Origin: Comamonadaceae bacterium
GTDB lineage: Bacteria; Pseudomonadota; Gammaproteobacteria; Burkholderiales; Burkholderiaceae_C
Reading direction: 5' to 3'
DNA: 43,914 bases
Assembly: GCA_947503685.1 (NCBI GenBank)
Contig: CANNEW010000002.1
Span: 1-43,914 of the forward strand
Shown: piece by piece, positions 6,756-13,555 of the stretch
How the letters are laid out: the number at the start of each line of letters is the position of its first letter
Position numbering within the stretch: the first letter of the stretch is position 1
Translations under genes and position numbers: made by a program
Notes under the pieces: model-generated
Databases searched by the model: none
What the model was told of the DNA's origin: nothing
The model's input: the letters and a program-made list of their open reading frames with translations, nothing else

Positions 6756-7091
6756 CTAAGATTGGACCGAAAGCTGAACGTGCTTACCAGTGCGCAAAAC
6801 CATGTCAACCAATGAGTCGACAGTGAACTTGGGTGTTTTCTGATTCACAACATCGGACACTCGAGGACGAGTGACACCCAGAATTTCTGCAGCCTGTGCT
6901 TGCTTGAGATTGTGTGTATCGATCCAGTTCACAATTTCAGTCATCAACGTTTGTTTGAGGGCTCGCTTTTCATCTATGGCCATGTCAGCTCCAGCCAGTA
7001 GCCTCTGAGCCTCTTCTGGCGCGAAGCCAAGGTCAGCAAAGATGTTGCCATCAGCAGGGGTGCGGTGGGTAATGATTTGTTGGGTGCTCAT
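6756..7091 (-). CDS. XRE-family antitoxin (HigA-like, COG5606 type)
   Basis: HTH region LKQAQAAEILGVTRPRVSDVVNQKTPKFTVDSLVDMVLRTGKHVQL; SD AGGAG 5' of ATG. Confidence 0.85.
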   Translation of the reverse strand: MSTQQIITHRTPADGNIFADLGFAPEEAQRLLAGADMAIDEKRALKQTLMTEIVNWIDTHNLKQAQAAEILGVTRPRVSDVVNQKTPKFTVDSLVDMVLRTGKHVQLSVQS

Positions 7092-7244
7092 TTTTACTCC
7101 TAGTCAGCAACATGTCTTTGTAACGTTGGGTAGACAAATCCTTGTCCTTTTGACTGGTCTTTTGTGTTTTCTTTTTGAAGCAATGCAGCACGTAAATGGC
7201 ATCTTCGAACTTGGCCACGTACATGACTCGAGACTGCCCAGCCA
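7092..7244 (-). pseudogene. C-terminal remnant of RelE/HigB (Gp49-like) toxin
   Basis: Frame encodes SRVMYVAKFEDAIYVLHCFKKKTQKTSQKDKDLSTQRYKDML, a Gp49-like toxin C-terminus; no N-terminal half; abuts the nrsF stop codon. Confidence 0.7.
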
Positions 7245-7880
7245 TTACCAGCGCAAAAACCGGGTGCCCAAACCCGCGCCCAATATCGCGCTCAAGCCCA
7301 TGCCGGCCGAGTACCACAGGGCGAAGAAGGTAAAGCTGTTCTCGGTACAGTGCAGCGAGTACAGCATCGCGGCCAGGGCGCCGGCACATAAACCGGACAT
7401 GGCACCCGTCAGTGCAGGCCGGGTCGGCGCCATGTCGCGCAGCGTCCACATCAATGCAGCCAATACGGGTAGAGCGACGAAAGCGATGCTCAAGGCACAC
7501 ACTTGCCAACTCGTCCCCAAGGCCAAGGCGCTGCGCTGCGCCACCGGAGCTTGCAGCAGTTGACTCATGCCTTGCCCGCCCATGGCCAGCAGTGCCAAAC
7601 CAATGGCCCAAGGCGCGTTGCCCATCTGCCGACCTGGATGCGCGAGGCTATAAATCAATGCTGCACTGAAAACGAGTAGCGCAAACAGCCACACCATCTT
7701 CAAGCCAAAGACCGAGGTGCTTGCGAATTCACTCAGCTTTGGATTCAGACCCATGTAAAGCACCATCACGCCACACACGGCCAGGGCCAGCGCCAAACGC
7801 CCACCGACTTGCCCGGGGGCGGGGCGCCGCGCCGGGCCGGCATCGTGCGCTAACAAAGCAATCAATTCATCGGTGTTCAT
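7245..7880 (-). CDS. nrsF: NrsF-family (DUF1109) membrane anti-sigma factor
   Basis: Six-TM-like protein MNTDELIALLAHDAGP...HCTENSFTFFALWYSAGMGLSAILGAGLGTRFLRW; ATGA overlap with the upstream sigma gene. Confidence 0.88.
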   Translation of the reverse strand: MNTDELIALLAHDAGPARRPAPGQVGGRLALALAVCGVMVLYMGLNPKLSEFASTSVFGLKMVWLFALLVFSAALIYSLAHPGRQMGNAPWAIGLALLAMGGQGMSQLLQAPVAQRSALALGTSWQVCALSIAFVALPVLAALMWTLRDMAPTRPALTGAMSGLCAGALAAMLYSLHCTENSFTFFALWYSAGMGLSAILGAGLGTRFLRW

Positions 7881-8437
7881 GGTTTCTCTCTCCATTGGGT
7901 GGCCAAGGCCTTTAAGCCGCGGTGCACATTCACTTTTACGGCCGCTTCGCTTTGTCCGGTCAAGGTCGCGGTCTCGGTGATCGACAGGCCTTGCAGCTTG
8001 GTGTGTTCAATCGCCAGGCGCTGTTTGTCGGGCAACAGCGTCAGCATATGGCTCAGGTCCCGGCGCGAGTCTGCAACTTCGGTCTCGCTGCTGGCGGCCA
8101 AGACTTCTGACCAGTCGTCGATGTCATCGTGCAAAGCCTCACGCCGGCCATGCGCGCGCAAATGGTCAATCCATTTGTAGCGCGCAATCGCGTACATCCA
8201 CGCCGTGAAAGGTTGCTCACTTTGGTAGGTGTGGCGTTTTTGATGAATGGCCAACAGAGTTTCTTGCACAAGGTCCTCCACATCACTCGGTTACGACTGC
8301 ATACGTCGATTCAGATAGCGCCGCAGGTAGCCACTGATCACCTTCAAAGCGCGCGCATAACAGGCGGCGTCACCCTCTAGGGCTTGCAGCCATAGCGCAT
8401 GCAATTCGAGTTCAATGGTTTGCAGGCTTTCGCTCAT
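7877..8437 (-). pseudogene. RNA polymerase sigma factor (ECF/SigF-like) interrupted by an in-frame TAA
   Basis: Manual reading from ATG 8437: MSESLQTIELELHALWLQALEGDAACYARALKVISGYLRRYLNRRMQS*PSDVEDLVQETLLAIHQKRHTYQ...; stop at 8291-8293, same frame continues with full sigma region 2/4. The supplied ORF track starts at GTG 8281. Confidence 0.8.
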
Positions 8438-8443
8438 CAAGTC

Positions 8444-8471
8444 AGTTCGCTGGTGGGTTTGAAAAAGTTAC
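8444..8471 (-). promoter_or_regulatory. Putative ECF-type promoter of the sigma/nrsF operon (GTAACT-N16-CGAACT)
   Basis: -35 GTAACT 8471-8466, 16-nt spacer, -10 CGAACT 8449-8444 on the minus strand. Confidence 0.65.
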
Positions 8472-8504
8472 AGATATATAAATAAAAAATAAATTCAATT
8501 TATC

Positions 8505-8532
8505 GTAACTTTTCGGTGTTGTGCAGCGGATT
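8505..8532 (+). promoter_or_regulatory. Putative ECF-type promoter of the hvfA operon (GTAACT-N16-CGGATT)
   Basis: -35 GTAACT 8505-8510, 16-nt spacer, -10 CGGATT 8527-8532, divergent from the sigma promoter. Confidence 0.65.
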
Positions 8533-8616
8533 ACACCATGACAGCGCTTGACAAGTGCCAAGACGGCATCAGTCAAAGGGGTCATTTTCAACCTTCATTT
8601 CTTCAGGAGATTTTTC

Positions 8617-8958
8617 ATGAACAAGCAACAACTTCTCGCCATCGCTTTGGGCTCTGCTTTTGCCGCCGTGGCCATTCTGCCCGCCCATGCTGCGGGCAAT
8701 CCTTTCGCGGCCAAAACCTTGGACGCAGGCTACCAAGTCGCCCAAGCCGACATGAAAGCCGACATGAAAGCGGACATGAAAGGCGAGACCAAAGCCAAAG
8801 ACGCTAGCTGTGGGGCCGATAAAGACATGACCAAATCCATGGATAAAAAGAAAGACGGAAGCTGTGGCGCTGACACAAAAGTCGATATGAAGATGGATAG
8901 CAAAGCCAAAGACGGCAAGTGCGGTGAAGCCAAGTGCGGTGCGGAAAAAAAGAAATAA
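8617..8958 (+). CDS. hvfA: HvfA-like RiPP metallophore precursor (signal peptide plus repeated Cys-Gly motifs)
   Basis: MNKQQLLAIALGSAFAAVAILPAHAA signal peptide; four CG motifs (DASCG, DGSCG, DGKCG, EAKCG); SD CAGGAGA; followed by MNIO gene. Confidence 0.85.
   Translation: MNKQQLLAIALGSAFAAVAILPAHAAGNPFAAKTLDAGYQVAQADMKADMKADMKGETKAKDASCGADKDMTKSMDKKKDGSCGADTKVDMKMDSKAKDGKCGEAKCGAEKKK
8746..8781 (+). repeat. 3 x 12-bp in-frame tandem repeat in hvfA
   Basis: GCCGACATGAAA / GCCGACATGAAA / GCGGACATGAAA encoding (ADMK)3. Confidence 0.9.
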
Positions 8959-9001
8959 GCCTTGCCTCCAGCAGATTGATTTTCAAAGCTGAGCTTTTCG
9001 C

Positions 9002-9907
9002 ATGGGCACCATTGCGCTTCACTCTGCAGGCTTGGGTTTGCGCCGCGAGCTGATCCCGGCGCTGCAGCAAGAGGTGCCCTCAGCCGTCCAGTTTTTCGAG
9101 GTCGCCCCCGAAAACTGGGCGGGCATGGGGGGCCGCGCTGGCCGCGCTTTGCGGGCCTTTACCGAGCGCTTCCCTTTTGTTTGCCACGGCTTGTCGCTGT
9201 CTCTGGGTGGCCCTGGGCCGCTGGACGAAATCTTGTTACGCCGTACCAAGGGCTTTATGCGCGAACACGGCATCAGTCTGTTTACCGAACACTTGTCTTG
9301 GTGCGCGGACGACAGCCATCTGTACGAACTGTTGCCGATTCCTCTGACCGAAGAGGCGGTGCGCTACACCGCCGAGCGCATTGCAAGGGCGCAAGATATT
9401 TTGGGCATGCGCATCGGCGTGGAAAACGCCTCCACCTACATCGCGCCACCCGGCGCCGAAATGACCGAACCCGAATTTGTGCGCGCCGTGATCGAGCAGG
9501 CCGATTGCCTGCTGCACTTGGATGTGAACAATATCTATGTCAATAGCCAAAACTTTGGCTTTGACCCCCATGCTTATTTAGAGCAACTGCCACTGGAACG
9601 CACCTGCTATGTGCATGTGGCCGGTCACTATGTGGAAGACGATGGCCTGCTGATCGACACCCACGGCAGTGAGGTGATCGACCCGGTGTGGCAACTGCTG
9701 CAAGCCGCTTACCAGCGTATCGGCCATTCGGTTCCCACCTGCTTGGAGCGCGACTTCAACATCCCCGACTTGCCTACCTTGGCGCAAGAGGTGACCCACA
9801 TTGCACGCTTGCAAAAAGCCGCCTGGCGTCGCGTTTCAGAGCAGCCTTTATTGCCCGAAGTGCACCCAGCTTTGTTTCATGTAGCCTCACCTTGGCAGGT
9901 GGCCTGA
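9002..9907 (+). CDS. hvfB: MNIO-family (DUF692) iron-dependent RiPP-modifying oxidase, HvfB
   Basis: HGLSLSLGGPGPLD, EHLSW, IGVENASTYI, LLHLDVNNIYVNSQNFGFD, HVAGHY, ERDFNIP motifs of DUF692. Confidence 0.93.
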   Translation: MGTIALHSAGLGLRRELIPALQQEVPSAVQFFEVAPENWAGMGGRAGRALRAFTERFPFVCHGLSLSLGGPGPLDEILLRRTKGFMREHGISLFTEHLSWCADDSHLYELLPIPLTEEAVRYTAERIARAQDILGMRIGVENASTYIAPPGAEMTEPEFVRAVIEQADCLLHLDVNNIYVNSQNFGFDPHAYLEQLPLERTCYVHVAGHYVEDDGLLIDTHGSEVIDPVWQLLQAAYQRIGHSVPTCLERDFNIPDLPTLAQEVTHIARLQKAAWRRVSEQPLLPEVHPALFHVASPWQVA

Positions 9908-10641
9908 TGCTGGCCTTTCAATACTTTCAGCACGCGCTGGCGCAGCATCTGCGCGACCCACACCATACCCGACGTCCTGCAGGGGTACCACAACGCCGCA
10001 TGGCGGTTTACAACGAGCTGGTGTTCACCAATAGCTGCGGTTTTGTGGACAGCTGTTTTCCGGTCTGCCGCCAGTTGCTGGGCGAGGCGCGCTGGCGCAG
10101 GCTATGCCGCACCTTTGTCCGCGACTGGCCACTGCACACTCCCTGGTTTCGCGAGATCCCGCGTGAGTTTGTGCGCTACCTGAGCGAACACACCATTGCA
10201 CAAGCCCTGCCGCGCTGGTTGGCAGAGCTGGCCCATTACGAATGGGCCGAGCTGGCGGTGGACGTGATGGAGCCCGCGGTCCCTGAACACGACCCCCAAG
10301 GCGACATGATGCAAGCGCGCGTGCTGCTCAACCCCGCTCGGGTGGATGTGGCCAGTCAATGGCCGGTGCACCGCATCGGCCCGACCTGGCGGCCGCGAAA
10401 AACAGAACCTACTTTTCTGGTGGTGTTTCGCGATGCAGAGCTCGCAGTGCAATTTACCGAAATCAACGCGGTGACGGCGCATGTACTGGCGCTCTTGGAC
10501 AGCGGCCTGAGCGGCCAGCAGGCCTTTGCGCAACTGGCGCGTGAAATGGCGCATCCCGACCCAGTGGCCTTACAAGGCTTTGGCCAAGAACTTCTCATCG
10601 GCTTGCGTGCGCAAGGCGTCATTTTGGGCACCCTGACATGA
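9907..10641 (+). CDS. hvfC: HvfC (DUF2063) partner protein of the MNIO enzyme
   Basis: RMAVYNELVFTNSCGFVDSCFPVCRQLLGEARWRRLCRTFVRDWPLHTPWFREIPREFVRYL; TGATG overlap with hvfB. Confidence 0.92.
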   Translation: MLAFQYFQHALAQHLRDPHHTRRPAGVPQRRMAVYNELVFTNSCGFVDSCFPVCRQLLGEARWRRLCRTFVRDWPLHTPWFREIPREFVRYLSEHTIAQALPRWLAELAHYEWAELAVDVMEPAVPEHDPQGDMMQARVLLNPARVDVASQWPVHRIGPTWRPRKTEPTFLVVFRDAELAVQFTEINAVTAHVLALLDSGLSGQQAFAQLAREMAHPDPVALQGFGQELLIGLRAQGVILGTLT

Positions 10642-11144
10642 ACTCTGTACATATCTTTTTCCGCCATGGTCTGAACGCACTGGACACGGCAGGCCTGTGG
10701 CTTGGCATGCTTAGCCTGCGCCTGCTGCTGTCTTGGGAGTTTGGCGAGGCCGGTTTTGAAAAACTGCAGGGCAGTAACTGGTTTGCCGACATTCAAGACC
10801 AGTTTCCCTGGCCCTTCAAGCTGATTTCCGCCGATCTGAACTGGGCCATGGCCACGGGTTTTGAAATCGTGGGCGCCGTCGCCTTGGTCATCGGTCTGGG
10901 TACACGCTTCTTTTCGGCCTCGTTGATCGTGCTGACCGTTGTCGCCATATTCAGTGTGCATTGGCCGCAGGCCTGGGTCACTTACAGCGAACTGCTGCAG
11001 GGCTATGCCTTGACCGACAAAGGCCACGGCAACTTCAAGCTGCCCTTGATCTATATCGCCATGCTCCTGCCGCTGGTGTTCATGGGGCCAGGGCGCTTGT
11101 CGCTGGATGCGGCGCTGCGAGAGCGCCTGCGAGTGAAAACTTGA
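10638..11144 (+). CDS. hvfX: DoxX-family membrane protein (HvfX)
   Basis: LLLSWEFGEAGFEKLQGSNWF DoxX motif, 4 TM; ATGA overlap with hvfC. Confidence 0.88.
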   Translation: MNSVHIFFRHGLNALDTAGLWLGMLSLRLLLSWEFGEAGFEKLQGSNWFADIQDQFPWPFKLISADLNWAMATGFEIVGAVALVIGLGTRFFSASLIVLTVVAIFSVHWPQAWVTYSELLQGYALTDKGHGNFKLPLIYIAMLLPLVFMGPGRLSLDAALRERLRVKT

Positions 11145-11236
11145 AAGTGGAAGCTCACTTTCGGTGAAGAGGGAGGGCCTAAAGCCCGAAAGAGAAGCAA
11201 GGCCTCTCATTGCCTTGATATCAAAAGGAGATCAAT

Positions 11237-12103
11237 ATGAAATTCAATCAATGGGCTGTTTCCATCGGTGTGGCAGTTGCGCTAACAGCCTGTGGCGGGA
11301 GCAGCGACGGGCCATCGCTCAATGTGCAGTTAACCGGGTTGGAAAATCTCGGTGCAAGCTCCGTTTATGAGGGTTGGCTGATTGTCAATGGTGCGCCTAA
11401 AAGTGCGGGACGATTCACAGTCAACGACCAAGGCGTGATGAGCCACAACAGTTTTGCGGTTGCCAGTGCGGATATCGCATCGGCGACGGCCTATGTTCTG
11501 ACCATCGAGCCGCAAAATGACACCGATCCCGCACCCACCAAGACGCATTTGCTGGCAGGTGATTTTGATGCGGCTCGCACGCTAGCGACTTTGAGTGTGG
11601 GGCATGCCGCAGCTTTAGGGACTGACTTTACGAGAGCCGCAGGCAAATTCTTTTTGGCCACCCCCACCAATCCGGGCACCGATGACCAAGGCATCTGGTG
11701 GATCGATCCCAGTTCGGGAAGCATGCAAGCGGGTTTAAGCTTGCCCACTTTACCTGCGGGTTGGGTGTATGAGGGCTGGGTGGTGGTGGACGGCAAACCC
11801 ACCACGACAGGCAGGTTTACCAGTGTGACGGAGGCAGACAGTGATGGTGCGGGACCCACCAAAGGTACTGGCCCAGCGCCGCCTTTTCCGGGGCAAGACT
11901 TCATCAATCCTGCCAAAAAGCTGCCCGGTGGGATGGCTGTGATTTCGATTGAGCCAGAGCCTGACAACAGCGCCGCGCCATTTTTGCTGAAACCCTTGTT
12001 GACCAATCCGATCAGCAATGCCACAGGCCCGAGCAATTTGCAGACCATGGTCAATCAGGCCAGCAAGGTCAACCCCAAAGGAACAGTGACGATTGTTCGA
12101 TGA
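11237..12103 (+). CDS. Lipoprotein resembling anti-sigma (RskA-type) domain, with two YEGW(L/V)(I/V)V(N/D)G repeats
   Basis: Lipobox ALTAC; SD AAGGAG; repeats YEGWLIVNGAPKSAGRF and YEGWVVVDGKPTTTGRF. Confidence 0.65.
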   Translation: MKFNQWAVSIGVAVALTACGGSSDGPSLNVQLTGLENLGASSVYEGWLIVNGAPKSAGRFTVNDQGVMSHNSFAVASADIASATAYVLTIEPQNDTDPAPTKTHLLAGDFDAARTLATLSVGHAAALGTDFTRAAGKFFLATPTNPGTDDQGIWWIDPSSGSMQAGLSLPTLPAGWVYEGWVVVDGKPTTTGRFTSVTEADSDGAGPTKGTGPAPPFPGQDFINPAKKLPGGMAVISIEPEPDNSAAPFLLKPLLTNPISNATGPSNLQTMVNQASKVNPKGTVTIVR

Positions 12104-12132
12104 TTGTGCGGCCGATTTAAACCATGCATTCG

Positions 12133-12156
12133 GGAGGTGATTTTCGGATCACCTCC
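12133..12156 (+). terminator. Strong hairpin between the lipoprotein gene and the thioredoxin gene (terminator or attenuator)
   Basis: GGAGGTGAT-tttcgg-ATCACCTCC perfect 9-bp stem; only a weak T tract follows. Confidence 0.5.
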
Positions 12157-12193
12157 TGCTTTGCGCAATCCGCACCCTCAAGACGCAGCCTTT

Positions 12194-12221
12194 GTAACTT
12201 ATGACGGCGTCCAAACGAATT
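12194..12221 (+). promoter_or_regulatory. Putative ECF-type promoter of the thioredoxin-ccdA operon (GTAACT-N16-CGAATT)
   Basis: GTAACT 12194-12199, 16-nt spacer, CGAATT 12216-12221; same architecture as the two elements at 8.44-8.53 kb. Confidence 0.65.
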
Positions 12222-12296
12222 CATCAAAGCCGGACCTTGAGGGCATGCTTGCCCTTGAGCCACAGCCCCCGTGACATTACTCAATAGGAAACGACC

Positions 12297-12677
12297 ATGA
12301 AAAAAACCCTGACCTTGCTGGCCCTGTCTTTGACCGCCTGGCTGGCCCCAGCCCATGCGCTGGAAATAATGCCTTACACCTCCCAAGCTCTGATGGGCAA
12401 GCAACAAGCGGGCGAAGTGGTGGGTTTGCATTTCCATGCGGCATGGTGCCCGACTTGCCGAGCACAGGAAAAAGTGTTTAACAGTTTCAAAGGGGACGCC
12501 TCGGTGCCGGGCACCTTGCTGGTGGTGGACTACGACCAAGAGCGCGAACTCAAGCGTGAACTCGGCGTGCGCTCGCAATCGACCCTGATTGTCTACAAGG
12601 GCAAAGAGCAAAAACACCGATCGGGCGGTGTGACCGATGCGCAGGCTTTGCGTGCCGCATGGCTGACCGCTCCCTAA
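12297..12677 (+). CDS. Periplasmic thioredoxin-fold protein (CPTC active site)
   Basis: Signal peptide then HFHAAWCPTCRAQEKVFNSF. Confidence 0.85.
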   Translation: MKKTLTLLALSLTAWLAPAHALEIMPYTSQALMGKQQAGEVVGLHFHAAWCPTCRAQEKVFNSFKGDASVPGTLLVVDYDQERELKRELGVRSQSTLIVYKGKEQKHRSGGVTDAQALRAAWLTAP

Positions 12678-12704
12678 TCCAAACCACAGCAAGAGGCGTA
12701 TCAC

Positions 12705-13433
12705 ATGGATCTGGCCATCAGTCACCTTGGTTTGAGCTTGCTCGCCGGCAGTTTGACCACCCTCTCACCTTGTGTGTTCCCCATCTTGCCAATGGTCTTG
12801 GGCGGGGCCGCGCAGGGTAATCGCCTGGCACCCTTGGCCATGGGGCTGGGCATGGCCTTGTCTTTTGCCGGCATTGGCGTGCTGATCGGCTCCTTGGGGC
12901 CCGTCATTGGTCTGGATGCAGACCATGTGCGCTTGTTTGGTGCAGCATTGTTGATGGCCCTGGGCTTGACGATGTGGGTGCCGACACTGAATGAACGTTT
13001 TGCCCAATGGATGATGCCACTGGCCAGTGGCGCTAACAATGTGTCTTCGCGCATGCAGGGCGACACCCTGGGCGGGGCCTTGATGTTGGGTGCCGTGTTG
13101 GGTTTGGTCTGGAGTCCCTGCTCCGGCCCCTTGCTGGCTTCGGCCTTGACCCTGGTGGCCAGTGAAGGCGGGGCCGTGCGTGGGGGTATTGTGTTGGGGC
13201 TGTTTGGTGTGGGTGCGGCCACGCCTTTGGTGGCGGTGGCTTACGCATCGCGCAGGGGCTTCCAGTCAGTGCGTGACAAAGTGTTGATGCACGGCGATCG
13301 GGTCAAAAAAGTATTCGGCGGATTGATTTTTCTGGCGGGCATCGCGATTGCCACCGGTGCCGACAAATGGCTTGAAGCGCAAGTGGTGGATCGCCTGCCT
13401 GACGCGTGGTTACGCTGGACTACCTTGTTTTGA
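12705..13433 (+). CDS. CcdA/DsbD-like transmembrane thiol-disulfide transporter
   Basis: LTTLSPCVFPILPMVLGGAAQG and VWSPCSGPLLASALTL Cys motifs in a multi-TM protein. Confidence 0.88.
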   Translation: MDLAISHLGLSLLAGSLTTLSPCVFPILPMVLGGAAQGNRLAPLAMGLGMALSFAGIGVLIGSLGPVIGLDADHVRLFGAALLMALGLTMWVPTLNERFAQWMMPLASGANNVSSRMQGDTLGGALMLGAVLGLVWSPCSGPLLASALTLVASEGGAVRGGIVLGLFGVGAATPLVAVAYASRRGFQSVRDKVLMHGDRVKKVFGGLIFLAGIAIATGADKWLEAQVVDRLPDAWLRWTTLF

Positions 13434-13555
13434 AAGCGCGCTATGTTGAGACTTCATCGCCTGACTTTCGACCAATTGCGTGGCAATTTAAGCAAGGGCA
13501 CCCTGAGTTCTAGCGAAGTGCCGCTGTTAGGGACAAGGCAGCCAGCACCGACAGA

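Follow-up and report, generated by a model that had tools for sequence, protein, structure and literature searches.

Results

Organization of the locus

The window, a stretch of 43,914 nucleotides that was analysed as a whole, carries a sigma factor locus facing a gene cluster for a putative copper-binding peptide. On the minus strand, an ECF sigma factor gene of the ECF16 type (7877-8437) adjoins a gene for a DUF1109/NrsF anti-sigma factor (7245-7895; PF06532, E=2.2e-51), the gene pair that characterizes SigF-NrsF systems. The encoded NrsF also has the two cysteines typical of such proteins, C133 and C183, and both alignment columns are invariant in 11 NrsF sequences. Because the NCBIfam NrsF equivalog model scores only 123/300 bits, we treat the protein as a member of the family and not as an equivalog. 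The edge of the locus on the nrsF side looks rearranged, since the distance from the PPIase gene to nrsF is 8.3 kb in the sister genome (G129) versus 0.9 kb here. Immediately past the 3' end of nrsF, the sequence resembles the C-terminal part of a RelE/HigB-like toxin (7051-7245), and an XRE antitoxin-like gene (6756-7091) adjoins it; both were assigned to families by eye.

On the plus strand, four genes make up the complement of an HvfA-type RiPP cluster: hvfA (8617-8958), encoding an HvfA-family metallophore precursor with a signal peptide and CG repeats; hvfB (9002-9907; NF003818, 392 bits), encoding the MNIO maturase; hvfC (9907-10641; NF050145, 271 bits), encoding its maturation partner; and hvfX (10638-11144; NF050144, PF07681), of the DoxX family. 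All pass their NCBIfam cutoffs, hvfA marginally (NF050137, a weak 20.3 bits against a cutoff of 19.5). For hvfC, dS relative to the sister genome is 0.08, compared with 0.16-0.38 for its neighbours, perhaps a result of recombination.

Between the hvf genes and the next unit lies a plus-strand gene for a lipoprotein-like protein (11237-12103; PF10099, E=1.3e-14). Its two RskA_C-like stretches probably do not make it an anti-sigma factor; the gene is present in the related loci L065 and L070 and was not seen in L066 and L068. It is followed by a hairpin with a 12 bp stem (12131-12158, plus strand; -22.5 kcal/mol, z -4.66), which has a weak T tail, is not called by a terminator scan, and could possibly mark the end of transcription ahead of the next promoter. 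Downstream, also on the plus strand, are genes for a periplasmic thioredoxin with a CPTC active site (12297-12677; PF00085, E=1.1e-8) and for a CcdA/DsbD-type membrane thiol reductase (12705-13433; PF02683, E=3.3e-19).

Three predicted promoters of one type

Each of these three units is preceded by a bipartite element of the form GTAACT-N16-CG(A/G)A. Re-reading the sequence confirmed the positions, strands and exact 16-nt gap that a previous sequence-only reading had given for all three. The predicted sigma promoter (8444-8471) lies on the minus strand, with its -35 hexamer GTAACT at 8471-8466 and its -10 hexamer CGAACT at 8449-8444. The other two are on the plus strand, the hvfA promoter at 8505-8532 (GTAACT at 8505-8510, CGGATT at 8527-8532) and the thioredoxin-ccdA promoter at 12194-12221 (GTAACT at 12194-12199, CGAATT at 12216-12221). 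A promoter scan of positions 8200-13500 found no sigma-70-like promoters.

The pattern GTAACY-N16-CGRA occurs three times in the window, at these elements and nowhere else. In 100 dinucleotide shuffles the mean was 0.16 and none contained at least three matches, an expectation that is optimistic since the pattern was derived from those same sites. The genome-wide scan that had been proposed as a check, here a pattern search of the 2.64 Mb draft genome (81% complete), bore the pattern out as rare: it returned seven matches, three of them the window elements, which are also the only matches of the GTAACT form in the whole draft. Of the remaining four, three are intragenic or directed away from any gene start; the last, in L007, lies partly within the end of a cytochrome c gene, immediately ahead of an rluA-like start; it probably arose by chance, an assignment less certain than for the other three. 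A position weight matrix built from loci of other clades than the window's placed the CGGA site fourth in the window and gave the other two elements the top two ranks. Single-site scores were unexceptional compared with Markov sequences, and the case therefore rests on placement and comparative evidence and not on any individual site.

The comparative evidence comes from 80 loci with orthologous sigma genes, collected from GTDB genomes. In these loci, GTAAC and CGAA occur 157 times at the hexamer spacing of 16, and each of the other spacings in the range 9-24 accounts for 0-9 occurrences. Sites are concentrated ahead of the sigma genes: the 300-bp upstream stretches, 24 kb in all, hold 119, and the remaining 1.44 Mb hold 51. 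A site reads into the sigma gene in 69 of the 80 loci, and in 44 loci sites face both ways. In the sister genome, whose sigma factor is 95% identical, the locus is complete and none of the three sites is missing. A T at the sixth base of the -35 element is typical of the window's clade, C being found in most other loci; the CGGA variant at the -10 of the hvfA-side site recurs in four relatives (L065, L068, L069 and L071), while L066 has CGAA and the corresponding sites of L070 and L073 deviate from the full pattern. That the elements are chance matches in AT-rich intergenic DNA might be suspected from the unexceptional single-site scores and from a pattern chosen after the sites had been seen, but the low expectation in the window, the conservation in the sister genome and the clade, and the confinement of 157 matches to one spacing leave this next to no credence, and we regard it as already refuted by these comparative sequence data.

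Paired matches also speak for the specificity of the pattern. Two contigs from a genus-wide pattern search, G114:C7 and G116:C210, each from a further genome, were chosen solely for holding two matches within 1 kb, and both proved to carry sigF-nrsF genes next to those matches. Genus-wide counts gave mostly single background matches, and genomes with and without the sigma gene were not separated by count alone; only clustered matches are informative in such a search. Matches at spacing 17 (GTAAC...TACGAA) inside the more distant sigma genes of L061 (1105), L062 (9322), L063 (8897) and L064 (9661) were set aside as a conserved coding stretch that is probably codon-driven.

The likeness to SigF-NrsF promoters that the sequence-only reading had pointed out proved correct. 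The sigF promoter of Caulobacter crescentus, mapped by 5'RACE and lacZ deletions, is GTAACC-N16-CGAA (PMC3511200), and an ECF16 consensus of (T/C)GTAAC-N17-CGAA is quoted in a Brucella study (PMC8315932). The window elements have the same layout, a -35 GTAAC and a -10 CGAA separated by 17 nt, or by 16 nt when counted from the sixth base, exactly so at the sigma and thioredoxin-ccdA sites; the hvfA site deviates, with CGGA for CGAA. As relatives also carry this consensus ahead of their sigma and target genes, the three elements are predicted ECF16 (SigF-NrsF) promoters. Promoters of this kind are known to serve a metal/oxidant-stress sigma factor, and the type of system is itself already known. 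It is very improbable that they are instead sites of a different regulator, such as a two-part operator or the promoters of another ECF group. The variable sixth base (T/C/A/G) and -10 (CGAA/CGGA) would fit that explanation, but the spacing is fixed at 16, the elements are oriented towards the downstream gene, and they match mapped ECF16 promoters beside an ECF16-type sigma gene and nrsF.

An in-frame stop in the sigma gene

What the sequence-only reading had overlooked is a TAA at codon 49 of the sigma gene (8291-8293, minus strand), identified by reading the frame and by alignment. The codon is CAA in the sister genome and in the six other close relatives aligned, and all 80 orthologues read through without a stop. 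The sigma gene is thus not intact in this assembly, and control by this sigma factor in this genome cannot be assumed. The Pfam matches, Sigma70_r2 and r4_2, fall on the part after the stop, where a GTG-initiated fragment would start too late to include the beginning of region 2 and is unlikely to be a functional sigma factor. The sigma gene has a dN/dS of 0.14 with no excess of amino-acid change, from which it follows that the TAA represents either a loss that happened very recently or an error in the assembly.

These data bear on the possibility that the promoters are real ECF16 sites that have been orphaned, the sigma gene being a recent pseudogene and the operons silent or under another sigma factor. 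The stop at a codon read as CAA in the closest relatives, its absence from all 80 orthologues, and the failure to find a second close sigma homologue in the 81% complete genome all favour such a state. On the other side, there is no further decay: the dN/dS of sigma is in line with that of its neighbours (0.09-0.36), nrsF, the hvf genes and trx-ccdA are intact and constrained, the promoters are unchanged, and a draft metagenome-like assembly may hold a base error at codon 49. We consider orphaned promoters doubtful, though a possibility to be taken seriously.

Only 6 nt separate the -10 hexamer from the sigma ATG (8437-8449), and in the closest relatives the start codon (ATG or TTG) likewise falls a few nucleotides past the hexamer. 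Since this gap leaves no room for a ribosome-binding site, the sigma message is likely to be leaderless or nearly so, in contrast to the leaders of about 75-85 nt predicted for hvfA and trx.

A proposed thioredoxin-CcdA arm

The third element raises the question of whether thioredoxin-ccdA belongs to the regulon at all, or whether the sigma factor controls only itself and the hvf genes and this element is incidental. The latter could be argued from the lipoprotein gene and hairpin that intervene between hvf and thioredoxin, and from an order-wide search in which 22 of 26 Trx-CcdA pairs lacked the motif within 250 bp upstream. Against it, the element agrees with its sister-genome counterpart at each of its 28 nt even though the flanks have diverged, and own sites precede Trx-CcdA elsewhere. 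Four of the 26 order-wide loci carry the element 76-109 nt upstream (L149, L158, L160 and L162; two of them adjoin sigma), compared with a chance expectation of about 0.1 estimated from the 80-locus background rate. The thioredoxin gene of L097 and the pair in L070 have their own motifs, and in L067 Trx-ccdA is itself the divergent neighbour of sigma, again with its own motif. An incidental element is therefore unlikely.

The position of the pair varies among relatives. It stands apart from hvfX with its own site in the window, L065 and L070, directly follows hvfX in L066 and L068, where no separate motif was seen, and in L051 and L175 accompanies hvf genes at loci lacking sigma. We think it reasonably probable that a periplasmic Trx-CcdA arm is a dedicated part of ECF16 SigF-NrsF circuits in Burkholderiales. 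It would be transcribed within the hvf operon or from a GTAAC-N16-CGAA promoter of its own, and in some loci would be the one target next to sigma, so that thiol repair and a copper-binding RiPP would form one programme. A limited literature search found no description of such an arm.

Discussion

The sequence, consensus, exact spacing, placement and conservation of the three elements make it very likely that they are the promoters of an ECF16 SigF-NrsF circuit driving sigma-nrsF, hvfA-hvfB-hvfC-hvfX and thioredoxin-CcdA. In such a circuit, membrane NrsF would hold the sigma factor until metal or oxidant damage, sensed via its two cysteines, released it for transcription from GTAACT-N16-CG(A/G)A; the release step and the metal/oxidant response are taken from studied relatives, and that the circuit operates in this organism, as well as the part played by the thiol pair, are our inferences. 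Released sigma would amplify its own near-leaderless sigma-nrsF message, turn on the divergent hvf operon, and with it a periplasmic copper-binding RiPP, and turn on the separate thioredoxin-CcdA unit, which would return reducing power to periplasmic thiols. Given the stop at codon 49, the circuit has either been disrupted very recently in this genome or its sequence has been misread.

If this circuit is correct, a well-studied sigma/anti-sigma pair would be linked to HvfA-type copper-binding peptides; the literature searched says little about how environmental bacteria regulate these peptides. Trx-CcdA, as a proposed shared thiol-reductase partner, may hold the cysteines of the precursor or of targets in the reduced state. 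In the Scs and DsbD/CcdA periplasmic thiol reductases, the membrane reductase hands electrons to a periplasmic thioredoxin-fold protein. The pair described here, for which the same function is predicted, has both components, but it consists of a short CcdA and a small thioredoxin behind a predicted ECF16 promoter.

In gene content (hvfA-hvfB-hvfC-hvfX), the cluster resembles the HvfA/oxazolin (Buf_EGKCG) clusters. The text of the survey describing them assigns sigma/NrsF genes to Buf1 clusters but not to Buf2 clusters, and mentions none for EGKCG clusters; thioredoxin and DsbD go unmentioned in its main text (PMC12452194). The gigPABT-rpoQ-rsqA locus of Cupriavidus metallidurans likewise has a divergent sigma/anti-sigma pair and a copper- and gold-induced operon in the same order, with no trx-ccdA arm noted in the accessible part of that study; there, deletion of rpoQ did not lower gig expression, giving no evidence that RpoQ drives gig (PMC10304878). 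The regulon proposed in the sequence-only reading (sigma, RiPP cluster and thioredoxin-ccdA) is strengthened by conservation and recurrence and weakened by this result and by the sigma stop.

The promoter class is shared by two other ECF16 systems, Sinorhizobium meliloti RpoE7 and Brucella BcrS-AbcS (PMC6180224, PMC8315932). Two listed RpoE7 promoters, one before the DUF692-DUF2063 operon that RpoE7 drives and one before rpoE7 itself, have the spacing of the window elements (PMC6180224). The target of BcrS-AbcS, unlike that proposed here, is a methionine-rich/redox operon (PMC8315932); neither system is described with thioredoxin-CcdA in the sections of these reports consulted. A further close parallel is the SigF-NrsF regulon of C. 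crescentus (CC3252-CC3257, CC2907-2905 and CC2748). Its listed targets do not include thioredoxin-CcdA, its precursor is Buf1 (DUF2282) and not of the HvfA type, and its sixth -35 base is C where the window has T, but it shares with the window the GTAACC-N16-CGAA type of promoter, the sigma-NrsF pair, the NrsF cysteine pair and MNIO-DUF2063-DoxX targets (PMC3511200).
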